From the NCBI GenBank assembly GCA_947040495.1, contig CAMRBQ010000003.1:1-64000 (forward strand): a stretch of 64,000 nucleotides of DNA. The letters run 5' to 3'. The stretch is from an uncultured Spirochaetia bacterium (lineage in GTDB: Bacteria > Spirochaetota > Brachyspiria > Brachyspirales > Brachyspiraceae). The translations under genes and the position numbers were made by a program. Positions 34,237-47,426 of the stretch are shown here, in pieces; position 1 is the first letter of the stretch; every line of letters begins with the position of its first letter. Under the pieces are notes generated by a model, which made no database searches, had not been told where the DNA came from, and was given only the letters and a program-made list of their open reading frames with translations.

Positions 34237-34881
34237 ATGAGTATAAACGATTTTTGCAATGCATTAAAAAATAAATATCCAAATACAAAAGAAGTGCTAG
34301 AACAAATTGAAGAGATTAGAGATACGCTATATATGAAAGTAGAAGAGTATCAAGAAAAAGGCTATAAATATGAAGATGCCTCAAAAGAAGCTATAACATC
34401 TCTTGGTGATATAGATTGCCTTTTTGAAGAGCTTACAACAGATGTCAAAACTATCTATAAAGGAAAAGCTATGGTATTGGCAAATATAATATCAGCTTTG
34501 GTAGTGTTTTCTGTCGCAACGATTATATCTATACTAGCTCAATTTATACCATTTTTATATGCATTCAAACCAACAGTGAAGTTTGGATATTGGCAACTTA
34601 TATTTGCATTTATGATTGTTTTTTTTATGCGATTTCAATATATTGTGAATATAAATAAAGTATCAGTAATAAAAATTGACGCAAAAGATAAAATAAAAAG
34701 TATAAAAACTGCCGTTATCGTAACTATTATATTTTCTATTGCAATGATTATAATGAACTTCTATCAAACATCATTTAAAATTATCTGGTTCCCATGGCCT
34801 ATTATAGGGATATCTAATTGGCCTATTTGTCTTTCAATTTATTCTAAATTTATAGAAAGCAATAAATTTGATACCAAATAA
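34237..34881 (+). CDS. HAAS-domain membrane protein (copy 1)
   Basis: 214 residues. Residues 1-75 form a soluble helical HAAS-type domain (VLEQIEEIRDTL, YEDASKEAI, SLGDIDCLFEELT), followed by four membrane helices. HAAS proteins are usually encoded right after PadR regulators and are thought to act as their membrane partners. The N-terminal domain is nearly identical to copy 2 at 42958, while the membrane part has diverged. GGAG lies eight bases before the ATG. It stands after a padR relic, so it may now answer to the distant PadR. A consensus promoter begins 34 bases after its stop. Confidence 0.75.
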   Translation: MSINDFCNALKNKYPNTKEVLEQIEEIRDTLYMKVEEYQEKGYKYEDASKEAITSLGDIDCLFEELTTDVKTIYKGKAMVLANIISALVVFSVATIISILAQFIPFLYAFKPTVKFGYWQLIFAFMIVFFMRFQYIVNINKVSVIKIDAKDKIKSIKTAVIVTIIFSIAMIIMNFYQTSFKIIWFPWPIIGISNWPICLSIYSKFIESNKFDTK

Positions 34882-34914: not shown

Positions 34915-34943
34915 TTGACAAACATAATACATTGGATTATAAT
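34915..34943 (+). promoter_or_regulatory. consensus sigma-70 promoter with 9-bp direct repeats (copy 1)
   Basis: TTGACA (34915-34920), a 17-base spacer and TATAAT (34938-34943) match the consensus at all twelve positions. ACATAGTAT (34905-34913) and ACATAATAC (34922-34930) are 9-bp direct repeats with a period of 17 around the -35, placed like a repressor site. The predicted transcript start is at or next to the ATG at 34950. The same arrangement recurs at 43639-43677. Confidence 0.8.
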
Positions 34944-34949
34944 ATAATT

Positions 34950-36008
34950 ATGTCAAATAAAATATATCATAATATTAAGCATAGTTTTTTAGTATTAATT
35001 ATTTTTGTATTACTTTCAAACTTAGCATTTGCACAAGAGCCCGAAACAACTGAAGACTACAAGGTGTCTAAATTTTATTATGACTTTCAATATTTTGGTT
35101 TTCCATTTTCTGCAAATATAGGCTATCAATATAGAAATGATTCTTCCGAGTTATTTGTTCCAATAGTTGGACTAAGCTATGAGTATGGTTTATATGCAAT
35201 AACTCTATATGCCGATGCTAAAATGGAATATAGATATAAAAGATTTTTCTTTGAGATAGGTTTTAAACAGGGCTTGATACCCGAAGTTGGTGATGGCTAT
35301 GAATACAAAAACCTTGAGAGTCTAGGGAGATTTAAAATTGGCTACTATTTTGAAAATGTTGGTATTTCGTATAATATTGATGTTGGCAATGGTTATACTA
35401 GAGAGATTGAAAGTAGAAATCTAGTTAACAAATTTCAAGTTAAACAAAATTTATCTCTATCTGCCTTGCTTCATGTTGATGCAAAAAACACCCTATCTTT
35501 TGATACTGCTGTAGGTGTGCAATCTCTTCCGTATTCTGACCAGCATACATATTCATTCTTTGCAAGAATTCCATATACATTCTTTCATTATTGGGGTGAG
35601 TTTGGTATAATGCCTGCAATACGGTATTCAGCATACTTTGCAGATTCAACAAGAGAATATACAATAGGTTCTCTTTATTTATATGATTTAATGATGATAC
35701 CTCTCACAGGTAATAATTCAGATTATAATAATTTATTAGACTTCCTATCATATGTTCATGTAGAGTATAAATTCTTTTTAAGATTTTTACCTGCTGGATT
35801 TAATAACATATTTCTTGTTGTTTTTGGCGATATAGGCTATGGTAAGCAAATTAATAAAAATTTTGATAATGGACAAATGCTTTATGTAGTTGGTGGTGGT
35901 ATCGGTTATAGTTTTTTTGGCACACCTTTCCAACTTACAGTGGGTGTTGATCAATTAGAAAATGTTGTATTAAATATACTTATAACACCTATCATGCATA
36001 GATTTTAA
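34950..36008 (+). CDS. secreted outer-membrane beta-barrel protein
   Basis: 352 residues from ATG 34950. A TTG at 34932 is in frame but lies within the -10 region of the promoter, so it cannot be the start. A signal peptide follows (hydrophobic core FLVLIIFVLL, cleavage after AFA). The mature part is made of alternating Tyr/Phe-rich strands and ends in MHRF, the terminal Phe recognised by the BAM machinery, so it is an outer-membrane barrel of roughly 16 strands. No ribosome site precedes the ATG, in line with a leaderless mRNA. First gene of the seven-gene envelope operon; its substrate is unknown. Confidence 0.7.
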   Translation: MSNKIYHNIKHSFLVLIIFVLLSNLAFAQEPETTEDYKVSKFYYDFQYFGFPFSANIGYQYRNDSSELFVPIVGLSYEYGLYAITLYADAKMEYRYKRFFFEIGFKQGLIPEVGDGYEYKNLESLGRFKIGYYFENVGISYNIDVGNGYTREIESRNLVNKFQVKQNLSLSALLHVDAKNTLSFDTAVGVQSLPYSDQHTYSFFARIPYTFFHYWGEFGIMPAIRYSAYFADSTREYTIGSLYLYDLMMIPLTGNNSDYNNLLDFLSYVHVEYKFFLRFLPAGFNNIFLVVFGDIGYGKQINKNFDNGQMLYVVGGGIGYSFFGTPFQLTVGVDQLENVVLNILITPIMHRF

Positions 36009-36034
36009 TTAATATTTAAATAAAGGAATAAAAA

Positions 36035-36760
36035 ATGAAAAAATTCATTTTGCTTGCTATAATACTTTTAGTTTCTACGCAACTAGCTTTTAGCTATAGT
36101 AAAGAAATGACTAGCCTACAAAACAACTGGTATTCAAACTCTAATACTAACGATACTAAAAATTTATATACCGCAATGGATAAAACTATAAATAGTGGTA
36201 CTTCAAAGATTGAAAAACAAACCTATAAAAATATTGTTGTCATTATGAAAGCAAATATGCATATTGATTCCAAAAGAGAAATACATAGTATGCTAAAAAA
36301 TACACTTGCCGAAAATGAGCCTCTACTCTCTGAAAGCAATGCCGACTATATGACATCAGTAGCTGATTTAATGAGTACTTTAATAGGATATTCCACATTG
36401 AAAGATGTAATTAAACTTTCTGGTAAATCAAGAGAGCTATATGAAAAATCATTAAAAACAGAGCCGAATAATTTTAAAACATTGCTTGGTAGTGCTCTAT
36501 TTACTGCTTTCACACCAAAAATGTATGGCGGGGGGATTGATAAGGCGATGCCAATATTGCAAAAAGCAGAAAAAAATGCAAAAGAAAATTGGCAGAAACA
36601 TGCTGTATATATTTGGCTATCACAAGCTTATATGAAAATTGGCGACAAAAATAACTATAAAAAATATATGACACTCGCAGAAAAAATATTCCCAGATGGT
36701 AATTTTTTTAATCGTGTTAAATCTATGAATGATGAAAATAAATATATGTTTGGTAAATAG
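36035..36760 (+). CDS. secreted helical-repeat (TPR-like) protein
   Basis: 241 residues with a signal peptide (MKKFILLAIILLVSTQLAFS). The rest is helical, with TPR-like pairs such as YEKSLKTEPNNFKTLLGSALF and a C-terminal YKKYMTLAEKIFPDGNFF. Probably periplasmic. AAGGAA lies before the ATG; the gap from the barrel gene is 26 bases. Its C-terminal block AEKxxPDGxF is shared with the next gene, so the two are paralogues. A scaffold or chaperone role for the export system is inferred from position only. Confidence 0.65.
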   Translation: MKKFILLAIILLVSTQLAFSYSKEMTSLQNNWYSNSNTNDTKNLYTAMDKTINSGTSKIEKQTYKNIVVIMKANMHIDSKREIHSMLKNTLAENEPLLSESNADYMTSVADLMSTLIGYSTLKDVIKLSGKSRELYEKSLKTEPNNFKTLLGSALFTAFTPKMYGGGIDKAMPILQKAEKNAKENWQKHAVYIWLSQAYMKIGDKNNYKKYMTLAEKIFPDGNFFNRVKSMNDENKYMFGK

Positions 36761-36779
36761 TTTTTTAAAAGGAAAATTT

Positions 36780-37616
36780 ATGACTGATTTAAAAAAATAT
36801 TTTATAATGATTATAATTTTGAGTGTATCTCAATATTCATTATTTGCTAATATTTCAGAAGAGGCACAGGCTTTTTTAAAAGAGATAGACATAAAAAATA
36901 ATGAATCTTATTCTGGCTCAAGGCTTGTAAGACCAAGTGAAGCTAAGGTTATTATTAAAAATATTGAAAGCTCTAATGCATTGACAGATAAAGAAAAAAT
37001 GTATTTAAAAATTGAAGCCTACTCACTTTGGGCAGCAACAAGTATAACATCAGGTACTTTTGAAGAAGACTATATTATCCTCAAAGATATATACAAAAAT
37101 ATAAGAAAAAGTAAGGCTTTCTGGAATGGGCAATTAAACTCAAATATTTATTCTTCATTCTCTGATTTTGGCAACTCATTAATTCCATTAGCAATGTTTA
37201 ATGATGATGCATACTGGTTTCTTATTGCTATGGATGCATCAGAATATTCGAGACTTGCTTTGCTAAAAAATCCTAATAATAAAAGAGCAAGTGCTTTATA
37301 TGCTATATCTAATACCATGACAGTATTTTATATGCATAACAATCAATATTCAAAAAGTCTAACATTTTTTGAAAATGCTGAAAATGGATTGCCAGAATAT
37401 ATGGTTTTTAGAACATACATATATAAATCTATGATGTACATGAGAATCAATGAAACTCAGAAAGCATTTGATGAGTTAGCAAAAGCAGAAAAAATGTATC
37501 CAGATGGTATGTTTGTTCATATGCTTAAAAGCTCATATGCGAAGGGTGAAAGTGGTTTTGCAAGTGCTAAGGGAAGCGATTTTGATAGTATCGCTAATTT
37601 TGATAATGAAGGATAA
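36780..37616 (+). CDS. secreted helical-repeat (TPR-like) protein, paralogue
   Basis: 278 residues from ATG 36780, chosen because AGGA lies eight bases upstream and a signal peptide follows (YFIMIIILSVSQYSLFA); an earlier in-frame ATG at 36729 overlaps the previous gene. The mature part is helical and ends with LAKAEKMYPDGMFVHMLKSS, matching the end of the preceding protein, then a Gly/Ser-rich tail. Probably periplasmic. It is followed after 13 bases by the ABC ATPase gene. Confidence 0.62.
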   Translation: MTDLKKYFIMIIILSVSQYSLFANISEEAQAFLKEIDIKNNESYSGSRLVRPSEAKVIIKNIESSNALTDKEKMYLKIEAYSLWAATSITSGTFEEDYIILKDIYKNIRKSKAFWNGQLNSNIYSSFSDFGNSLIPLAMFNDDAYWFLIAMDASEYSRLALLKNPNNKRASALYAISNTMTVFYMHNNQYSKSLTFFENAENGLPEYMVFRTYIYKSMMYMRINETQKAFDELAKAEKMYPDGMFVHMLKSSYAKGESGFASAKGSDFDSIANFDNEG

Positions 37617-37629
37617 GGAGTAATATAAT

Positions 37630-38301
37630 ATGATAAAATCTGAAAATATTTGTAAAGAATATAAAACTAAATACTATGATATTGTAGCAAACGACAATAT
37701 TAATATAGAGATTGCATATGGTGAAATTGTTTGGGTGAGCGGAGTATCAGGTGCTGGCAAATCTACTCTACTTCATATACTTGCAAGTATAGATGTTCCT
37801 ACAAGTGGTCATGTCTATTGGGACGACAAAGAAATTTCTGCATTAAATGACAAAGAGAGGAGTTACTTCAGACTCAATAATATAGGATTAATACTACAGT
37901 CGCTTGAATTATTAAAAACACAAACTGTATTTGACAATGTCGCTTTGCCGCTTCGTTTTATGAAATATGATAGTCAAAAAATAAATACAAAAGTTAATAA
38001 TATATTAGAAGAATTAAATATAATTGATTTAAAAACTAAAAAGCCCGAACAACTCTCTGGCGGACAAAAGCAGCGTGTCGCCATTGCTCGTGCTTTGGTT
38101 ACAGAAGCCCCATATATTTTAGGCGATGAGATTAGTGCAAACCTTGATGGTGATACTAGTAAGTTTATATATGACTATGTTAGAACTGCTATTAAAAAAA
38201 GAAATGGAATAGGATTTTTTATTTCGCATGACGAGGCAATAAAAGACTATGTCGACACAATGTACACTATGAAAGATGGAATATTGGAGGCAGTAAAATG
38301 A
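37630..38301 (+). CDS. ABC transporter ATPase, LolD/MacB type
   Basis: 223 residues: Walker A SGVSGAGKSTLL, Q-loop LILQSLELL, signature LSGGQKQRVAIARAL, Walker B YILGDEIS, D-loop ANLDG and H-loop FFISHDEA. Length and sequence fit the LolD/MacB/FtsE class, whose partners are FtsX-fold permeases that handle lipoproteins, lipids or peptides at the membrane without moving them through a channel. AAGGAG precedes the ATG, and the stop overlaps the permease start (ATGA), which fixes its partner. Confidence 0.92.
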   Translation: MIKSENICKEYKTKYYDIVANDNINIEIAYGEIVWVSGVSGAGKSTLLHILASIDVPTSGHVYWDDKEISALNDKERSYFRLNNIGLILQSLELLKTQTVFDNVALPLRFMKYDSQKINTKVNNILEELNIIDLKTKKPEQLSGGQKQRVAIARALVTEAPYILGDEISANLDGDTSKFIYDYVRTAIKKRNGIGFFISHDEAIKDYVDTMYTMKDGILEAVK

Positions 38302-39512
38302 ATATAATAAAACTAGCATGGGATAATCTTTGGTATAACAAAACAAGAACAATATTAAATATTGTATTAATAGTTGCCGCTTTCAGTTCTTTAATGTTTA
38401 TAAGCGGATATAATAACTATGCAGAAGATGGAATAATGCTGGGGATTACTGAGGCTAATGGTTCTGTTGTAATAGCGGATAAATCGCATTGGGATGTAAA
38501 CAGTGAAAAAGAAAATATGCTCTATGCTTCCGATATAAAAATAATAAGTGAAAAGCTTGATAGCTATGATGATGTTTCTGCCTATCAGAAAAAATTGAAT
38601 GTGAGCGGTATTATTGGAACAGAGAATAAAAGTAAATTTTTTATGGGTAGTGCATATGAAGATGTATCGAGAATGCTAAAAGGTTTATCATTAAAAGAGG
38701 GTACTCCTTTATTTAATGATGATACTGATACTCTACTTTTAGGGGTTGACTTAGCAGAGTACCTTAATGTATCTTATGATGAAGAAACCTACCTAAATGT
38801 AATGGCTGACTTTGACGGAATAAGCTTGGGATCATTTTTGGCTGTAGGCTCTGTATCTTTTTTTAATAGTCAAGCCGATGGGGCAGCAACACTTTTTCCA
38901 CTGCCTGCAATATATAATGTATTTAATATTGAAAATGGCTCAGCCAATAATTTGATTGTATATTTAGAAGATTATAATAAAGCGGGAGAAATAAAAACTA
39001 ATTTAAATGAATATTTTGCTTCAAATGATATGCCTTATGAAGCCAAAGACTGGAAAGATTTAAATGAATTTATGCTTAGTGTACTTGATATGAATGCTAA
39101 TAATTATTTTATAGTGCTTATAATACTTAGTGCTTTGGTGTTTTTCTCTATTATGCAAACCCTTACGACAAATTTTCTCGAACGTTTGAGCGAGTTTGGA
39201 ACTATGAGGGCAATAGGTATTAATATAAAAAATGTTACTCTACTACTTTTTTCAGAGATAATTTTGTTAGTTATTGTAAGTACAGTAGTCGCTATTATTA
39301 TGTCATATGTAAGTGCGACTATATTTAATAATATGGATATAACATTTACACCTCCCGGTGCTTCGGAAGGCTATCCTTTTAGTCTCATTCTTAGAGTTAA
39401 AGATAGCCTATTTATATTTGTATGGGTATTAGCTATTTCATTACTTGCCGCTGTGTACCCTGTATATAAAGTTATAAAATTAAAAATTATAGAGGTTATA
39501 AAATATGTATAA
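38298..39512 (+). CDS. FtsX-fold ABC permease (LolC/E or MacB type)
   Basis: 404 residues. It opens with the cytoplasmic KLAWDNLWYNKTRT elbow and a first membrane helix (about 15-37), then a periplasmic domain of about 220 residues, then three helices near 270, 315 and 370, with ERLSEFGTMRAIGI, the coupling helix typical of this fold. The large periplasmic domain would hand cargo to a soluble carrier, as LolE/LolC does to LolA. Starts inside the ATPase stop and overlaps the LolA-like gene by eight bases, so the three are translated together. Confidence 0.9.
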   Translation: MNIIKLAWDNLWYNKTRTILNIVLIVAAFSSLMFISGYNNYAEDGIMLGITEANGSVVIADKSHWDVNSEKENMLYASDIKIISEKLDSYDDVSAYQKKLNVSGIIGTENKSKFFMGSAYEDVSRMLKGLSLKEGTPLFNDDTDTLLLGVDLAEYLNVSYDEETYLNVMADFDGISLGSFLAVGSVSFFNSQADGAATLFPLPAIYNVFNIENGSANNLIVYLEDYNKAGEIKTNLNEYFASNDMPYEAKDWKDLNEFMLSVLDMNANNYFIVLIILSALVFFSIMQTLTTNFLERLSEFGTMRAIGINIKNVTLLLFSEIILLVIVSTVVAIIMSYVSATIFNNMDITFTPPGASEGYPFSLILRVKDSLFIFVWVLAISLLAAVYPVYKVIKLKIIEVIKYV

Positions 39513-40203
39513 AATAATAGTCATTCTGATATTTTCATTTATATCTATACAAGGATTATTCAGCCAAAATCTATTTTTAGAATTTGCTAATATGTATACA
39601 GGTGATAATAAACAAATAAAAATATCTGGCAGTCTAATTAATATAAAAGATGGTGTAAAAAGTCCTGACCCTTTTGAGATGATTAAAAGCAAAGACTATA
39701 CTTTATTATACTTTACAGCCAAAAATACAAAATCACTATTTCTTGCCAATAATCAAGGATTTTTCATACAGGGCAAGAATCAAAAATCTGCCATGAAAAT
39801 ATCTGGCAACTACACAGTAACAGGCTCTGCCAATACAAGCGATGTTATGAGTTTTGATTATTTAAAAGATTATGAAGTTAAAAATATAATAAGTGATGAT
39901 GAAGTGTATTTAAAAAGAATAAGGCGAGATGTTGCATATAATGAGGCTATACTCAAGAGGGCTTCATTTGGCTATACAATTGATTTTCTCGACAATAGTG
40001 GAAAGGAAGTAAAAAGAGGGATTTATAAAATAGGTGTTGTTTCGGGACAAAAGGCATTTAGCAGAATGGAATTTCATAATTTAATAATAAACAAAAATAT
40101 TATAACTGTTTATACTATGACAAAAATAGAGTCTGTTAATATATCGATATCTTTCTTTAGAAGTGAAAATATGGGTAGGCTATTTACATTATTTGAAGAC
40201 TAA
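39505..40203 (+). CDS. LolA-like outer-membrane lipoprotein-sorting protein
   Basis: 232 residues with a signal peptide (IIVILIFSFISIQGLFS). The mature part follows the pattern of the LolA-like sorting family: YTLLYFTAKNTKSLFLANNQ, FFIQGKNQKSAMKISGNYTV, then TSDVMSFDYLKDYEV, a half-barrel that shields acyl chains. In the family such carriers bind lipoproteins or lipids released by an FtsX-fold permease. It overlaps the permease gene and sits two bases before a barrel gene. The assignment rests on remote pattern similarity and strong context. Confidence 0.7.
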   Translation: MYKIIVILIFSFISIQGLFSQNLFLEFANMYTGDNKQIKISGSLINIKDGVKSPDPFEMIKSKDYTLLYFTAKNTKSLFLANNQGFFIQGKNQKSAMKISGNYTVTGSANTSDVMSFDYLKDYEVKNIISDDEVYLKRIRRDVAYNEAILKRASFGYTIDFLDNSGKEVKRGIYKIGVVSGQKAFSRMEFHNLIINKNIITVYTMTKIESVNISISFFRSENMGRLFTLFED

Positions 40204-40205
40204 TC

Positions 40206-41270
40206 ATGAAATATATAAAATTAACTTTACTCTTTTTATTATTGTTATGCATACCATTATATGCAAGCATTACACCAAATTTTGGAATAGAAACAGATTT
40301 TACATACATAGATTTAAAAGATTCTGAGTTTGCCCCAAATAATATTTTTAGTAATGAAACATCATTTTATGCTGGTTTTGAATACCTTAGCTTTAATCTT
40401 TATGTTTCTGTTAAACCTGCATTTAAAATATATACTACTAATAATTTTAGCGTTAAATTTGAAAATGGGGACATTATAAAAAATAATAAAGCATTAGCAA
40501 AAATAACATTCTTCTTTGGAGACATTTATTTTTCTTATGTGGGTAATAATTTTGCTCTTTATTTTGGAAAGAGAATATTTCACTTTGGTGAAGGCTTTAA
40601 CAGGCAATATATGTTTATCGGGGATAGTGTGCTCAATGATAATTATAATGCTTTATATAATGCTCAAGTTAATATTTATCAAGGCAATATTACTCATGGG
40701 CTAGGCTTAATGCCCGACACTGATTCTATAGATAAACTTGAAGAGCCGCTATATTATTTAGGTTGGTATTCTATTAATTATTCTACATCTTCATTGGGAT
40801 TGCTTGGTATAGCTGAGTATGAATATAATGTGGCTGATAACAATAATAATCTGAAATTAGGATTTGAAACTTCTTATATTTTTAACACGGGTATAAAAGT
40901 ATATGGTAATATTTTATATGACTTAATAAATCAAAATAATATAGGAAGTTCAACAAGCAATATAAATTCACAAATTGGAATTAACTATACATGGCTATAT
41001 GATAACCATATGTTAATGCCAGTTGTTGAATACTTTTATGAAGATAGTCATTCTTTTTATTCTATCGCCATTTATGCTTCATTTTTTGACAGCCTATTTT
41101 CATTAACTGCTTCTTTTGTTCATTCACCAAATTATAAAATGCATTTTATAACAATGGCTACTCTTAATATAGATGATCAGTTTAATATGTCTTTCACATA
41201 TAATACACCATTAAATACTAGTGATGAGCTGTTAAATATTTTTGAACTTTCATTAGAATATAATTACTAA
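40206..41270 (+). CDS. outer-membrane beta-barrel protein of the ABC operon
   Basis: 354 residues with a signal peptide (YIKLTLLFLLLLCIPLYA). The mature protein is a series of amphipathic strands rich in Tyr, Phe and Asn and ends LSLEYNY, an aromatic terminus. It is the natural outer-membrane acceptor for the LolA-like carrier encoded before it. It has no close match to LolB, which is a lipoprotein, so the outer-membrane step here would be of another kind. Last gene of the operon. Confidence 0.7.
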   Translation: MKYIKLTLLFLLLLCIPLYASITPNFGIETDFTYIDLKDSEFAPNNIFSNETSFYAGFEYLSFNLYVSVKPAFKIYTTNNFSVKFENGDIIKNNKALAKITFFFGDIYFSYVGNNFALYFGKRIFHFGEGFNRQYMFIGDSVLNDNYNALYNAQVNIYQGNITHGLGLMPDTDSIDKLEEPLYYLGWYSINYSTSSLGLLGIAEYEYNVADNNNNLKLGFETSYIFNTGIKVYGNILYDLINQNNIGSSTSNINSQIGINYTWLYDNHMLMPVVEYFYEDSHSFYSIAIYASFFDSLFSLTASFVHSPNYKMHFITMATLNIDDQFNMSFTYNTPLNTSDELLNIFELSLEYNY

Positions 41271-41383: not shown

Positions 41384-42508
41384 ATGAATATAGATAGCAT
41401 AAGAAAAGAAATTAGCGAAAAACTTCAAACGACTAGTAGCCATATAGATGTATATAATGTTAGCGAGCCATATAAAAATATTTTAGAGTCATGTATTAAT
41501 TCAAATCCCAAAAATATTTCTGCCTATTGTTTATTAGCAATGGTAATGGAAGGAATGAACCAGGACGATGAAAGAACGGCTACATTAGAAAAATATTATG
41601 AAGAAAATAGGGATACTTTTTCTAATGATGAATATGCTATGTGGGCAACATGTAATGCATATTTTATTTTTGATGACTATGGCTATGTAGAAAGTAAAGA
41701 CAATTATAAAGCCTATAAATTTTTAGAAGAAGCAGTCAAACGTAAGTCTAGTTTTTATCAAACATATTATGCTCTAGGCTGGTACTATTTTGAAAATAAG
41801 TTATTTGAAAAAGCCTCTGAAATGTTTCAAACTGCATACTCAATATCAAAAAATAAAAAATATTTATATTGTCAGGCCTCAAGTTTACTTAAAAGTTCTA
41901 AACATAAAGATGGATTAGAAATACTTGAATCTATATATACCTACCCTTTTATTGAGGAAGAGCTAGAATTAAATTTTGAAATTGCACTTACACTTGGCTT
42001 TACACTGGCACTTATGGATGAAACAGGTAGAGCATCTGAAGTTGCGGAAATATTATTAAATACAAACACAGACAAATTTTACAATGCAAATGCCGACTGG
42101 CCTCTTACAGACTTTCTATATACATTAGGAAATTTTGAATATATCATTAATTATTATGATGAAAATAAGTATTCAGAAGATGCTTCATGGCGAGGACAAT
42201 ATTTTTATTCTCTTAAAATGCTTGGAAAAGAAAAAGAGGCTCATCTAAAACTAAAAAGCCTTATTAAAGAATATGAAGAGTCTATCCATGAAGAAGAAAA
42301 TAATACAAGCTATGGGACTGAGGACGCTGATTGGGAAACAGATGAAGATAGAATAGAGTATATAGTTGAAACAAAAGAGATGCTTGAATCAATAAATAAA
42401 TGCTATAATGATGTGTTTAAGCATAATATAAAGCCCACAAGAGATCCATACTATGATATTATTTATGAATGCTATTATATAGGCTGCCCTCGCCATTATA
42501 TAGATTAA
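41384..42508 (+). CDS. cytoplasmic TPR protein
   Basis: 374 residues without signal peptide. Several TPR-like helix pairs are visible: NPKNISAYCLLAMVMEG, FYQTYYALGWYYFENKLFEK, ASEMFQTAYSISKNKKYLYC, RGQYFYSLKMLGKEKEAHLK. An acidic stretch (EEENNTSYGTEDADWETDED) and a Tyr/Cys-rich end follow. TPR proteins bind other proteins; the partner is unknown. It lies between the ABC operon and padR and has its own promoter. Confidence 0.7.
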   Translation: MNIDSIRKEISEKLQTTSSHIDVYNVSEPYKNILESCINSNPKNISAYCLLAMVMEGMNQDDERTATLEKYYEENRDTFSNDEYAMWATCNAYFIFDDYGYVESKDNYKAYKFLEEAVKRKSSFYQTYYALGWYYFENKLFEKASEMFQTAYSISKNKKYLYCQASSLLKSSKHKDGLEILESIYTYPFIEEELELNFEIALTLGFTLALMDETGRASEVAEILLNTNTDKFYNANADWPLTDFLYTLGNFEYIINYYDENKYSEDASWRGQYFYSLKMLGKEKEAHLKLKSLIKEYEESIHEEENNTSYGTEDADWETDEDRIEYIVETKEMLESINKCYNDVFKHNIKPTRDPYYDIIYECYYIGCPRHYID

Positions 42509-42620: not shown

Positions 42621-42953
42621 ATGGAAATACAAAGCGATATAATAAGAGGACATCTTGAGCCCATCATACTCAAATGCCTATTAAAAGAAGATAGGTATGG
42701 CTATGAACTTTCAAAAATAATCACAGAAAAAACTGATAATGAATATGAAATTAATGCACAGTCTTTATATAGTGCAATTAGAAGGCTAGAATCTCAAAAA
42801 CTCTTAAAATCATATTGGGGTGATGAAACAAAAGGTGGTAGAAGAAAATATTACAAAATAACAGATAATGGCAAAGAGGCATTTAAGCAACATATAAAAA
42901 ATTGGCAATTTGCAAAATTTATAATAGATAAACTCTTAGAGATAAAGGAGTAA
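42621..42953 (+). CDS. PadR-family transcriptional regulator
   Basis: 110 residues: a winged helix-turn-helix with [20 protein letters not shown], then [21 protein letters not shown] and the wing [10 protein letters not shown], ending in a dimerisation helix. PadR proteins are repressors that usually control a neighbouring membrane or efflux gene. It is followed after four bases by the HAAS gene, its typical partner. No clear ribosome site precedes the ATG. A likely target is the direct-repeat element at the two consensus promoters (34905-34930 and 43639-43664); this is an inference. Confidence 0.9.
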
Positions 42954-42957
42954 TAAA

Positions 42958-43605
42958 ATGGATATAATAAATAATTATTGTAATAATTTAAAAAGTAAAT
43001 ATATAAATACCAAAGAAGTACTCGAGCAAATTGAAGAACTTAGAGATACAATACATATAAAAACAGAAGAGTATCAAGAAAAAGGTTACAAATATAGTGA
43101 TGCCGCAAAAGAAGCTATAGCATCTCTTGGCGACATAGATTGCCTTTTTGAAGAGCTTACAACAGATGTAAAAATGGTCTATGATGCTCGTATTAGTCTA
43201 CTTACAAATATATTATCTACAATTATAATATTTGCCTTGGCTATAACTATATGGCGGCTCTCTATCGCTATACCATTTTTGAATGGCATAAATGAAACCG
43301 TATTTTTAGGCTTTATAAACCTCTCAATTGCAACTTTTGTTGTATATGCTGTACAATTTAATGATATGGTATATTTAAATGAAAAAAGAATTGTCAAAAA
43401 TAGTAGCAAAAAAAAATATAGAAATATAAAAAATAGTATTATGATTTTTATAATAATTTCTATTATCACAGTTATAATAAATTTTTATACAACAAAATTG
43501 AATGGTATATGGTTTGTATGGTTTATTATAGGTGTAGCAAATTGGCCTATTGCAACGTTAATATATTATAAACTTCTCGAGAGTAATAAATTTGATCTAA
43601 AATAA
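42958..43605 (+). CDS. HAAS-domain membrane protein (copy 2)
   Basis: 215 residues. Same plan as the copy at 34237: an N-terminal HAAS domain (VLEQIEELRDTI, YSDAAKEAI, SLGDIDCLFEELTTDVK) and four membrane helices, ending ESNKFDLK where copy 1 has ESNKFDTK. AAAGGAG lies before the ATG and the gap from padR is four bases, so it is co-translated with it. It probably modulates PadR from the membrane. Confidence 0.78.
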   Translation: MDIINNYCNNLKSKYINTKEVLEQIEELRDTIHIKTEEYQEKGYKYSDAAKEAIASLGDIDCLFEELTTDVKMVYDARISLLTNILSTIIIFALAITIWRLSIAIPFLNGINETVFLGFINLSIATFVVYAVQFNDMVYLNEKRIVKNSSKKKYRNIKNSIMIFIIISIITVIINFYTTKLNGIWFVWFIIGVANWPIATLIYYKLLESNKFDLK

Positions 43606-43638: not shown

Positions 43639-43677
43639 ACATAATACATTGACATACATAATACTTAATAGTATAAT
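43639..43677 (+). promoter_or_regulatory. consensus sigma-70 promoter with 9-bp direct repeats (copy 2)
   Basis: TTGACA (43649-43654), 17 bases and TATAAT (43672-43677), again a full consensus match. ACATAATAC occurs twice, at 43639-43647 and 43656-43664, exactly 17 bases apart around the -35. Here the gene start is 29 bases downstream of the -10 and has a normal ribosome site, unlike copy 1. Confidence 0.8.
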
Positions 43678-43706: not shown

Positions 43707-44309
43707 ATGAAAAAGTTATGCTTACTCATTTTTACGCTAGTTTTATCTACTACAGCATTATACTCGCAAGATAATTTTGATTATTCTAAGTTTAATGGAA
43801 TATCTATCGGTGGTGGTGCAACTGTTACATCAGATATTAGTGGTGGTTTTTTTGATTTTGGTTTTAACTTCTATTCAAAAAATACTACTACGGGTAATTT
43901 TTCTATAAGAAACTATATAGAAGTTATGGGTGGTGGTTTTGCTTCTGGTACTGGTGGCTATGGAATACTTGGTTTTAGAGAACGTATTATATTTGCAGGT
44001 ATTACTCCAATAACTGACAAATTTGGAATCAGGACATATGGTGGAATCGACTTTGGTATTTCCTTTTATAGTGGTGATAATGGCATTGATAAAAAAACAG
44101 ATTTATTTGAAGAGCCTTTCATGCTAGAACCCCGTGGTTTTGGTGGTATAGAGTTTTTATTTACAGAGCAAAAAGGAAGAGTAAGTGGCTCTATATTTGT
44201 AGAAGGTGGCGGTGGCGGTAGAATATTTGTTTCTGGAAATAAAGATTCTACCATAGGCATTGCGGGCGGCTCTGCATTCATAAACGTTGGTGGAAGAATT
44301 TATTTTTAA
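43707..44309 (+). CDS. small secreted Gly-rich barrel protein
   Basis: 200 residues with a signal peptide (LCLLIFTLVLSTTALYS) and a mature part of Gly/Phe/Tyr-rich strands (ISIGGGATVTSDISGGFFDF, GFRERIIFAGITP, EPRGFGGIEF) that ends GGRIYF, an outer-membrane barrel terminus. An eight-strand barrel fits the size. AAAGGAG precedes the ATG. It is driven by the second consensus promoter and followed by a strong terminator, so it is a single-gene unit under the same type of control as the ABC operon. Function unknown. Confidence 0.68.
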   Translation: MKKLCLLIFTLVLSTTALYSQDNFDYSKFNGISIGGGATVTSDISGGFFDFGFNFYSKNTTTGNFSIRNYIEVMGGGFASGTGGYGILGFRERIIFAGITPITDKFGIRTYGGIDFGISFYSGDNGIDKKTDLFEEPFMLEPRGFGGIEFLFTEQKGRVSGSIFVEGGGGGRIFVSGNKDSTIGIAGGSAFINVGGRIYF

Positions 44310-44365: not shown

Positions 44366-44491
44366 TTTAAACTACTACATACATTTTTTCAATAAGTTGA
44401 CTATAATTAAAAATATTATATGATTTGTTTTCTAACTAAAATAACTATATTTTTATATCTTATAGCTGTTTCATTATTAAAGGGAGAAATT

Positions 44492-45601
44492 ATGAATAAG
44501 CGTATACTTTCATTAAAAGAAATTATTGATTATAGAGGAGTATTTTTTATAGGCGAGGTTGGGGTAAATCATGATGGCTTGCTACAAAATGCATTATCAT
44601 ATGTCAATGAAGCTGCCTCTTCAAATATAAGTGCTATAAAGTTTCAGTCTTTTACTAAAGATAGTCTTTTTGCAGAAGAAGAATATTGTAAAATATTAAA
44701 TTTAGAAAAAGATGCATTATCAAAAATGGATGATATAGTTTTTAAACAAAACTGGTATAAAATAATATTAGCTAGGGCTATCGAAAAAAAGATTATATTT
44801 ATGAGCACTCCATTCTCTGTTGAATCCGTAGATGATATGGAAAGTATTAATGTAGCCATATATAAAGTTGCATCATGTGATATAAATAATATACCATTAC
44901 TAAATGCTATTTCTAAAACACATAAGCCTGTAATTCTTTCGCTTGGGCTTGCTAGCAATGAAGAGATAAAAAATGCACTTTCTATATTAAAAAATAATGA
45001 AGTGGCTTTGCTACATTGTATAGTAGAATATCCTACTGATATTGATAAATTAAAACTTAATAGAATAGTTGCATTAAAAGAACAATTTCCAAACAATATA
45101 ATAGGCTTTTCAGACCATAGCATTGGTCTATTGGCTCCAAAGATAGCTATAGCACTTGGGGCACAGATAATAGAAAAGCATTTCACAATTGAGCCTACTA
45201 GAGAAGATGGCGACCATAAAATAAGTATAAGTCAATATGACTTTCAAGAATTAATAAAAGAAGCATATATTATACAAAATACTGATAATCCATTATTTTA
45301 TCTTTCACATGATAATGATAAAGTTATTGAAGAATCTATTGTAAAGCAGGCTTTGGGTACTGAAAGTGATAAAAAAAATGAAAAAATATTTACCGAAAAA
45401 GAAAAGTCTGAATTTGTTTATGCCAAAAGAGGTATCTATTTCAGGCATGATATGAATGAAGGGGATATTATAAAAGAAAGTGATATTATAGCATTAAGAC
45501 CATGCAGCGAAATTAGTGTTAGCAAATGGAATAATGTCATCGGTAAAAAATTACTGCTAGCAAAAAAATCAAATTCACCACTAAAACAAAGTGATATATA
45601 A
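44492..45601 (+). CDS. NeuB-family sugar-acid synthase
   Basis: 369 residues from ATG 44492, which has AAAGGGAG before it; an upstream in-frame ATG at 44420 would put that site inside the gene. The TIM barrel shows FFIGEVGVNHDG, AIKFQSFT, FMSTPFSVESVDDM, YKVASCDINN, VALLHCIVEYPT, GFSDHS, IIEKHFT and DGDHKIS, the active-site blocks of NeuB; an antifreeze-like SAF domain ends it (KRGIYFRHDMNEGDII). It condenses phosphoenolpyruvate with a hexosamine to give sialic, legionaminic or pseudaminic acid; which one cannot be read. It leads a probable operon with the glycosyltransferase 17 bases downstream. Confidence 0.88.
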   Translation: MNKRILSLKEIIDYRGVFFIGEVGVNHDGLLQNALSYVNEAASSNISAIKFQSFTKDSLFAEEEYCKILNLEKDALSKMDDIVFKQNWYKIILARAIEKKIIFMSTPFSVESVDDMESINVAIYKVASCDINNIPLLNAISKTHKPVILSLGLASNEEIKNALSILKNNEVALLHCIVEYPTDIDKLKLNRIVALKEQFPNNIIGFSDHSIGLLAPKIAIALGAQIIEKHFTIEPTREDGDHKISISQYDFQELIKEAYIIQNTDNPLFYLSHDNDKVIEESIVKQALGTESDKKNEKIFTEKEKSEFVYAKRGIYFRHDMNEGDIIKESDIIALRPCSEISVSKWNNVIGKKLLLAKKSNSPLKQSDI

Positions 45602-45618
45602 ATTAGTTATATATAATT

Positions 45619-46728
45619 ATGTCAAAAAAAATAAAAAATAAATTAAATATAATTGTAGTATCTGCACTAGGTGAAAATACTGGCTGTGCTTTGAGGGCAA
45701 AATATATAGCTGCCTCATTAAAAAATAATAATGTAAATGCTAGATATATCAAAGGTATAAATACAAAGCCTTTTATGCTAGATTTTATTATAACATTATT
45801 TATAAATGTAAGGATACTTTTTATCCCATCTGATATAATCATAGGCTGCAAGCCATATCCAAATATTGCAATATATATGTGTATAGCAAAAATAATATTT
45901 AGAAAAAAAATAATATTTGATATAGATGATATGGATACATTTAGAAAAGGGCTTATTGGTAAATTTGGCTCTCTAATACAAAAGCCATATCCAAAGCATG
46001 CAGATATTGTAACATATCATAGTCATAATCTACATAAATATATAATAGAACATTTTTCTGTAACAGAGGAAAAATTATACCAGCTTATACAAGGTGTGAA
46101 TTTAGAGTATTTCCATCCAATAACAGAAGATGATAATAAATTATTTGATATTTGGCAAAAACACTTTTTAATACAAAATAGCCTTGTTGATAAAAATATA
46201 CTTTTATATATAGGACATTTAAATATAGCCTGTGATTTAAAAAGTATATTTGAAATACTTTTGATGGCTATAGAAGAAGGTCTCACTGATATAAGACTTG
46301 TTGTTATCGGTGGTGGAGATATGTTAAATCATTTTAAAAATCTATCTATAAAAATGGGGCTGGAAGAATATATAGTATTTACAGGCTATATCGACTATAA
46401 AGATATCATACGTTATAGCTCCATAAGTAATAGGAGTATTGTTTATTATAGCGATATAAAAGAAAACTATGTCAGACAGTCTATGAAAATTAGAGAACTA
46501 CTTGCTATGAAAAAATATGTTATATGCAATGATATAGGCGATTTAAAAGAATTTGAAGAATATACATATCAAATAAATGCCTTTTCATATAATGATATGA
46601 GCAAAATGATAACAAATACTTTTTTAGAAACATTGGATGATAGAAATGAAAAAGGCTATGAATATATAAAAAATAATTTTGATTGGAATATAATAGGGAA
46701 AAAATTTTTAAATAGGATAATTAATTAG
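45619..46728 (+). CDS. GT-B glycosyltransferase (family 4-like)
   Basis: 369 residues. The N-terminal domain has IIVVSALGENTGCALRAKYIA; the C-terminal nucleotide-sugar domain has LLYIGHLN, LVVIGGGDML, EEYIVFTGYIDYKDII and a SMKIRELLAMKKYVI block near the usual E-x7-E donor site. There is no signal peptide; it acts at the cytoplasmic face on surface polysaccharide or protein glycans. Placed right after the NeuB-family gene, it may transfer the sugar acid or build the same glycan. Donor and acceptor unknown. Confidence 0.75.
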   Translation: MSKKIKNKLNIIVVSALGENTGCALRAKYIAASLKNNNVNARYIKGINTKPFMLDFIITLFINVRILFIPSDIIIGCKPYPNIAIYMCIAKIIFRKKIIFDIDDMDTFRKGLIGKFGSLIQKPYPKHADIVTYHSHNLHKYIIEHFSVTEEKLYQLIQGVNLEYFHPITEDDNKLFDIWQKHFLIQNSLVDKNILLYIGHLNIACDLKSIFEILLMAIEEGLTDIRLVVIGGGDMLNHFKNLSIKMGLEEYIVFTGYIDYKDIIRYSSISNRSIVYYSDIKENYVRQSMKIRELLAMKKYVICNDIGDLKEFEEYTYQINAFSYNDMSKMITNTFLETLDDRNEKGYEYIKNNFDWNIIGKKFLNRIIN

Positions 46729-46830
46729 ATATATATAAGACTTGCCAGATATTTATATATTGATAGATGCTATTGCAATATATTATAAGTATTATATATT
46801 TAAAATACAGTTTAAGATTCTATCATACTT

Positions 46831-46848
46831 GACAATCGGGGGGTTGTC
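46831..46848 (+). terminator. short hairpin, possible terminator
   Basis: GACAATC-GGGG-GGTTGTC gives a 7-bp stem with one G-T pair, followed by TATTTT. It lies in the 164-base gap between the glycosyltransferase and transglycosylase genes. The T run is short, so termination would be weak. Confidence 0.4.
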
Positions 46849-46892
46849 TATTTTAAATAGATAATAATAAATTATTTTAGCTGGGGATATTC

Positions 46893-47426
46893 ATGATAAA
46901 ATATTTGTTACTTATATTTATATTTACTTTGTCTGGTCTAAAACTAGGCACACAAAATTTTGATATATCAACATATAAAGATATAAAAGTTGATTATAAT
47001 ATTGATATAATAAAAGATATTGCCATGTATTATAAACAAGATTTTAACCTTATAAAACATATTTTTGATATATGCGGCCAATTTGACCTAGACCCACTGC
47101 TTTTAATATCTCTTATAAAAGTAGAAAGTGACTTTATACCAGGAGCCGTATCTTCAAGCAATGCCATTGGATATTGTCAGATAAAACCTATCGTATTAGA
47201 AGATATTGGCTATGATTTAGATCAATATAATCCATCAGAGAATATTATGATAGGAGCTATATTTCTAGCAAAACTAATAAATATATATAATAATAATGTT
47301 GAAGAGGCTTTAATACATTATAATGCTGGTACTATGGATAGTATTAGAGAAAAGGGTATCGAATATGCTAGTAATGTATTATACGAATATAATACAATTA
47401 AAATATTTAAAGAAAGGTATAAATAA
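46893..47426 (+). CDS. SLT-type lytic transglycosylase
   Basis: 177 residues with an N-terminal hydrophobic export signal. The catalytic domain shows LLLISLIKVESDFIPGAVSS with the acid Glu in VESDF, then NAIGYCQIKP and EALIHYNAGT, the three blocks of soluble-lytic-transglycosylase folds. It cuts peptidoglycan between MurNAc and GlcNAc, in the periplasm. It is short, essentially the catalytic domain only. It lies between the glycosyltransferase and dxs; a role in flagellar or envelope insertion is possible but not shown. Confidence 0.85.
   Translation: MIKYLLLIFIFTLSGLKLGTQNFDISTYKDIKVDYNIDIIKDIAMYYKQDFNLIKHIFDICGQFDLDPLLLISLIKVESDFIPGAVSSSNAIGYCQIKPIVLEDIGYDLDQYNPSENIMIGAIFLAKLINIYNNNVEEALIHYNAGTMDSIREKGIEYASNVLYEYNTIKIFKERYK

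Follow-up and report, generated by a model that had tools for sequence, protein, structure and literature searches.

How cargo carried by a LolA-type protein enters the outer membrane of a bacterium that has no LolB is a general question, and it is addressed by the pairing of two genes, g6 and g7, in a spirochete of the family Brachyspiraceae. These genes lie in a 64,000-nucleotide stretch (the window) of contig CAMRBQ010000003.1 (assembly GCA_947040495.1, uncultured Spirochaetia bacterium), whose + strand holds seven open reading frames (ORFs), g1 to g7, between positions 34950 and 41270. The genes from g1 to g4 are spaced by 26, 19, and 13 bases, followed by overlaps of 4 and 8 bases and then a gap of 2 bases, as described in an initial annotation made from the sequence alone, and in many relatives the seven genes again occur together, each as a full-length ORF. 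Automated ORF calling places the starts of g1 and g3 further upstream, at 34932 and 36729. On balance, and with moderate confidence, we read the set as a second, specialized Lol-like trans-envelope system of two joined modules, A and B, in which g7 would receive cargo from g6 and which would be switched by a PadR-family regulator in Brachyspiraceae. The seven genes are:

34950..36008, + strand: g1, putative outer-membrane barrel A, orthologue of Borrelia BBJ25, module A (signal peptide, family alignment, phylum search)
36035..36760, + strand: g2, secreted tetratricopeptide repeat (TPR)-like protein, type g2, module B (TPR_8, E 3.4e-4; seed of the g2-type hidden Markov model, HMM)
36780..37616, + strand: g3, secreted TPR-like protein, type g3, module A (weak TPR_2 match; seed of the g3-type HMM)
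37630..38301, + strand: g4, LolD-like ATP-binding cassette (ABC) ATPase (PF00005, E 8e-30)
38298..39512, + strand: g5, FtsX/LolC-E-type permease, single gene (PF02687, E 1.3e-14)
39505..40203, + strand: g6, periplasmic LolA-fold carrier (PF17131/NE2245-like branch)
40206..41270, + strand: g7, outer-membrane barrel B, orthologue of Borrelia BBJ29, proposed carrier partner, module B (AlphaFold2, Foldseek, hhalign)

The same seven-gene set has been described in Borrelia as BBJ23–BBJ29 (Nixon et al., February 2026; PMC13078400), and we therefore dropped a reading of the cluster as novel; what is new here is the division into two modules, the reassignment of g7, and the operator-promoter of Brachyspiraceae. 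In the linear pathway of Nixon et al., the ABC transporter passes a nonpolar ligand to the LolA-like protein, which, guided by the TPR proteins, delivers it to the Omp85-like BBJ25 (g1) for insertion, and BBJ29 (g7) has no known role. This proposal draws on the resemblance of BBJ25 to SAM, TamA, and BamA in AlphaFold3/DALI comparisons and on the low expression of BBJ29 (PMC13078400), and the great majority of clusters do have g1. Our phylum search covered 393 sampled genomes with few candidates scored in each, so absences are soft unless re-searched. Across these genomes, the set appears to consist of two separable modules, g3 with g1 (TPR–barrel, module A) and g2 with g4 to g7 (ABC–carrier–barrel, module B), a strong pattern but, because the stand-alone cases are few, not proof.

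Module A can be seen on its own at several loci. At L144 (genome G165), L145 (G228), and L151, g1 stands beside one TPR gene without the ABC pair and carrier, and neither G165 nor G228 contains a matching permease anywhere in the genome; at L147 and L148, an extra copy of g1 likewise adjoins one TPR gene. HMMs built from the first and second TPR proteins, which belong to one superfamily, separate cleanly into g2-type and g3-type, and by these models the TPR protein beside g1 is g3-type at every one of the five loci. Extra copies at L149 and L150 combine g1 with both TPR types. Module B without g1 is found in family f49 (L082, L083) and in the sister row L088, where ATPase, permease, and carrier are accompanied by a g2-type TPR protein only; f49 also has g7. 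In the locus of family f35 (L077), the order is g3-g1 and then g2-g4-g5-g6-g7, with the modules side by side. Such arrangements count against the linear pathway, in that g1 and a g3-type TPR protein occur in several genomes lacking the carrier or a matching permease, whereas one family has the carrier and g7 but no g1, and related families of both proteins likewise occur without it across distant spirochetes.

The association of g6 with g7 extends well beyond Brachyspiraceae. The two co-occur in every locus of a five-family group that is complete around g6. In distant spirochete families, 17 loci encode a PF17131 carrier together with an ATPase and one or two permeases; beside them there is usually a secreted protein of ≈430 amino acids, often with an aromatic C terminus. 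Thirteen of these ≈430-residue proteins form one family that matches the g7 family (hhalign 97.4%, E 1.5e-11, 247 columns); a relationship of g1 to this family was rejected (hhalign 17%), as was homology between g1 and g7 (22%). The TPR proteins of the distant cassettes show profile similarity to g2 and g3 but were rejected as orthologues and treated as a different TPR type because they gave no score to the type HMMs. The cassettes of other spirochetes thus share a homologous ATPase, permease, and carrier and a g7-related barrel with the window set, but they lack g1, use another TPR type, often have two permeases, and carry permeases that form a separate tree group. Because g6 and g7 co-occur and g7-related barrels stand beside distant PF17131 carriers, we propose that the outer-membrane partner of g6 is probably g7 (BBJ29) and not, as published, BBJ25; the linear pathway seems to us unlikely, although it is the strongest of the competing explanations.

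Some observations weigh against our interpretation. BBJ29 is weakly or not expressed in Borrelia (PMC13078400), the confidence of the g7 structural model is modest, and g4 and g5 score well under the NCBIfam cut-offs for LolD and LolCE. In addition, two Treponema-family genomes (G044, G134) keep g1 to g5 and have cleanly lost both g6 and g7, with no copy elsewhere; the ABC transporter can therefore act without them. Gene sets of this kind, without carrier and barrel, are what the initial annotation had named as contrary evidence, but the joint loss looks secondary because another genome of the same genus keeps all seven genes.

The assignment of g6 as a carrier is supported by both profiles and structure prediction. 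The window protein alone matched no Pfam family, and a PF17131 search of its own genome misses it, indicating that single-sequence searches under-call this family. Four of 21 family members match PF17131, and the g6 family aligns with 14 clear PF17131 proteins over 228 columns (hhalign 98.9%, E 1.7e-17); its profile also retrieves the LolA-superfamily structure 3buu from the PDB (E 1.9e-7). The AlphaFold2 model of g6 (like that of g7, made with six sequences) has a predicted local distance difference test (pLDDT) score of 82, and 3buu is again the best Foldseek match (E 1.5e-10; template modeling (TM) scores 0.68/0.71), with Porphyromonas gingivalis LolA3 (9tp6, the second-ranked distinct structure) and the Vibrio PF17131-type protein 3bk5 also among the best. 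The LolA half-barrel expected of this protein from the initial reading of the DNA is thus upheld. Extra LolA-fold paralogues for which separate pathways have been proposed are also known as LolA3 of P. gingivalis and LolA2/LolB2 of Flavobacterium (PMC13103446, PMC11885536), but those loci are not described as one operon with an FtsX-type pair, TPR proteins, and barrels.

The ATPase g4 has intact Walker A, Walker B, and signature motifs, and its best NCBIfam match is LolD, at 179.1 bits under a cut-off of 307.75. The permease g5 passes the PF02687 cut-off (54.7 versus 25.5 bits), as expected for an FtsX/MacB-type (type VII) ABC permease, and scores 54.9 bits against TIGR02212, under the cut-off of 362.45. 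That cut-off is strict for spirochetes, since the other LolC/E-like permease of the genome also falls under it (E 5e-80). As there is a single permease gene, g5 probably acts as a homodimer. Elsewhere in the same genome, contig 15 encodes a PF03548 LolA and contig 8 a LolC/E-like permease with a stronger match. A search of 11 genomes, that of the window among them, found no match to PF03550 (LolB), with a positive E. coli control. Given the separate LolA and LolC/E and the lack of a detectable LolB, the operon appears, from sequence comparison, to be an additional, second, specialized Lol-like route. Compared with LolCDE-LolA-LolB of E. coli, the window set shares a LolD-type ATPase, a LolC/E-type permease, and a LolA-fold carrier, but it has a single permease gene, lacks LolB, and adds two barrels and two secreted TPR proteins; its carrier belongs to the PF17131/NE2245 branch and not to PF03548, and its scores lie far under the curated LolD and LolCE cut-offs.

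Much of the initial annotation therefore stands: the Lol-type ABC pair matches the ATPase and FtsX families, the two secreted helical proteins are TPR-like by Pfam and profile matches, and, with no LolB detectable in the genome, a barrel adjoins the carrier. Its dedicated trans-envelope pathway holds as to the Lol-like ABC transporter, the LolA-fold carrier, and the adjoining barrel but not as one linear route, since the set splits into two modules, each having a single TPR type and a single barrel, and its second, specialized Lol-like system is indeed additional to the LolA and LolC/E of the genome but was already known from Borrelia.

FtsX-type permeases include MacB-like exporters, and PadR-type regulators often control efflux pumps. 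The operon could on these grounds encode MacB-like efflux by mechanotransmission, in which a small amphipathic compound or peptide leaves via the barrels, the carrier serves as a sponge that binds it in the periplasm, and no lipid or lipoprotein is transported; the resemblance of the g7 model to general porins, Occ channels, and AlgE would fit. A LolA-fold carrier is unusual for such systems, however, and LolCDE is the family that permease and ATPase match best. In contrast to MacAB-TolC pumps, g4 and g5 are separate genes, not fused, and the ORF list and family matches reveal neither a MacA-type adaptor nor a TolC-type channel within the operon. We consider efflux of this kind improbable.

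The two barrels differ in how they are recognized. For g7, the AlphaFold2 model is all-β (pLDDT 69) and its Foldseek matches are the β-barrels of porins, Occ channels, and AlgE (AlgE TM up to 0.63), in agreement with the second barrel of the initial annotation; its profile search of the PDB returned weak porin matches alone. For g1, the first barrel, the evidence comprises a signal peptide, the length of the protein, weak Pfam matches to outer-membrane families, and the AlphaFold3 model published for BBJ25; the g1 profile found no match in the PDB. Neither an Omp85 Pfam domain nor POTRA was matched in 20 family members, and the L6-type motif [VILF]RG[FYW] is missing from all 22 g1 ORFs, which speaks further against the linear pathway. 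The Omp85 label of BBJ25 is thus not supported by sequence hallmarks here, and the 16-strand Omp85-type fold is a prediction of the published AlphaFold3/DALI model. A profile search with the TPR-like family matched designed TPR structures (g2). By motif check, a lipobox is absent from all secreted proteins of the window.

Because TPR and barrel proteins occur in both modules and AlgE ranks among the folds closest to g7, the operon might be a polysaccharide or glycolipid exporter in which the TPR–barrel pairs work like AlgK-AlgE and the ABC parts supply a lipid-linked substrate. NeuB and a glycosyltransferase also lie 3 to 5 kb downstream in the window, but no conserved association of these genes with the cluster was found, the cluster contains no glycan polymerase, and the confidence of the barrel model is low; we regard this as the least probable of the explanations considered. 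The downstream genes for NeuB, the glycosyltransferase, and an SLT transglycosylase (44420-47426), together with a DXS gene, were not counted as part of the cluster. A cytoplasmic TPR protein (41384-42508) directly follows g7, occurs as tandem copies in L022, and is also outside the conserved cluster.

Complete clusters are present in 16 Brachyspiraceae (the window, L021–L024, L108–L115, L117, L119, and L121), in six Treponemataceae-type genomes including a Treponema (L025; L068–L072), in seven Borreliaceae, and in one genome of family f35. The gene set that the initial annotation suggested looking for in other spirochetes is therefore found in four families, in shuffled orders: g1 g2 g3 g4 g5 g6 g7 in Brachyspiraceae, g2 g3 g4 g5 g6 g7 g1 in Treponema, and either of two arrangements in Borrelia. 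In the permease tree, Brachyspiraceae, Treponemataceae, Borreliaceae, f35, and f49 form one group (100/99) with each family as one clade; because of this single group and its clades, the system is either old or rarely transferred. Judged by the permease, the nearest relatives of the window genome include Brachyspira. Two complete genomes of the genus Brachyspira (G002, G005) lack it on re-search. Individual loci show further variation. In Brachyspira genome G010 (L116 9174-11990), g1 is missing and a 938-residue ORF starting with a HAAS domain takes its place; in L118 (G007), the cluster is interrupted between g4 and g5 and g1 is on another contig, by rearrangement or an assembly break. Loci L108–L115, L119, L122, and L123 (genus Brachyspira) contain 100 to 1700 bp of extra intergenic sequence, mainly at g1/g2 and g4/g5 and once at g6/g7, that is absent from the window. 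One Treponema-family genome has its carrier gene split into two frames (L071 7900-8653), and one Borrelia plasmid copy has a short ATPase gene (L084 9980-10324), with an intact second copy adjoining in the same genome.

The complete cluster was claimed to be specific to Borrelia, where it may reflect a two-host life, with the Brachyspira genes said to be split by two pseudogenes and the Treponema homologues to lie among unrelated genes (PMC13078400). The intact complete clusters in Brachyspiraceae and Treponemataceae disagree with this claim. The Brachyspira TPR genes are full length, and no pseudogene specific to Brachyspira was seen in the cluster, whose genes are full length at 16 loci; where the genome search for g1 flagged TAA codons in frame, the profiles would be running past the natural stop. 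All seven protein families are common to the window and to Borrelia BBJ23–BBJ29, are contiguous in both, and include the Borreliaceae loci (e.g., L080), and the transporter is of common descent (permease group 100/99). The window set differs in being chromosomal, in a gut-type spirochete, in the order g1 g2 g3 g4-g7, and with a PadR-type operator-promoter, whereas the Borrelia set, whose genes are co-regulated, is linked to RpoS. In Borrelia, BBJ26 (g4) is listed, through a transposon mutant, among the genes that may be required for full infectivity in mice; the authors of this large screen call it preliminary (PMC3485029). An LptD homologue is required there for surface lipoproteins (PMC13317210); other lipoproteins are handled by BB0346, the chromosomal LolA.

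Under the two-module interpretation, a (g4)2(g5)2 complex would act as an ATP-driven extractor that removes cargo, hydrophobic and probably acylated, from the inner membrane; g6, with its LolA fold, would ferry it across the periplasm, and the barrel g7 would take it at the outer membrane, with the TPR protein g2 as a periplasmic helper. The TPR protein g3 and the barrel g1 would constitute an independent barrel-plus-TPR unit that, joined with module B in one operon, may place the cargo or product in, or pass it through, the outer membrane. Export of hydrophobic or acylated cargo would be the most likely function.

Regulation of the operon in Brachyspiraceae centers on its promoter and on genes flanking it:

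34237..34881, + strand: HAAS-like (DUF1700-type) membrane protein, probable PadR signaling partner (by resemblance to PMC11237479)
34910..34930, + strand: 21-bp imperfect dyad GTATATTGACAAACATAATAC over the −35 box, proposed PadR operator
34915..34943, + strand: operon promoter TTGACA-17-TATAAT (12/12 consensus match, conserved in relatives)
42621..42953, + strand: PadR-family regulator, candidate repressor (PF03551, E 2.6e-20; its orthologue precedes g1 in L021 and in the majority of Brachyspira loci)
42958..43605, + strand: another HAAS-like membrane protein, separated from PadR by 4 bases (homologue of the 34237..34881 protein and of HAAS proteins in relatives)
43644..43664, + strand: second operator-promoter copy (2 mismatches to consensus; full-consensus promoter at 43649-43677)
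43707..44309, + strand: small Gly-rich secreted protein with a C-terminal Phe, likely a small outer-membrane barrel (operator 43 bases upstream)

The full-consensus promoter reported by the initial annotation is one of three 12/12 matches in 64 kb, and its conservation before g1 in relatives makes it more than a chance match. In the window, 6 bases separate the end of its −10 box from the start codon of g1 (34938-34950), so the g1 message would be leaderless or nearly so; relatives have a longer leader. In most of the Brachyspiraceae loci read, the 21-bp element, with consensus GTATATTGACA(A/G)ACATAATAC, overlies the −35 box that precedes g1. Two copies with up to three mismatches were found in the window against 0.04 expected. 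Its 16-bp core occurs twice in the 2.55-Mb window genome, before the operon and before the gene for the small secreted protein. It never appeared in the reverse control, and most of the relatives tested have it once, before g1. Loci like those of B. pilosicoli have neither the element nor PadR.

In most loci of the genus Brachyspira, and also in L021, PadR and then one or two HAAS genes directly precede g1, whereas the PadR copy of the window lies downstream of the operon instead; no Pfam model passed for the HAAS-like protein at 34237..34881. PadR-HAAS pairs have been proposed as membrane-stress sensors, some of them fused to FtsX-type proteins (PMC11237479). From these arrangements, the operon of Brachyspiraceae is probably switched by PadR, presumed to bind the −35 operator, together with HAAS membrane partners. 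We propose the 43707-44309 protein as a second target of the same regulator; its homologues, with 40 to 56% identity, are found mainly in the two nearest relatives, where the element before them is degenerate.

For spirochetes, this distribution contradicts the idea of the cluster as an adaptation to the tick host. In the published Borrelia model, BBJ25 is a possible insertase and BBJ29 has no role; the distribution reassigns the likely partner of the carrier to BBJ29. The conserved operator and its candidate regulon of two promoters could reveal the inducing signal in Brachyspiraceae. More tentatively, where LolB is lacking, a LolA-type carrier might hand acylated cargo directly to a cognate β-barrel (g7/BBJ29), to be placed in or through the outer membrane, with a separately evolved g3 and g1 unit coupled to it, in a scheme that may be common to host-associated spirochetes.

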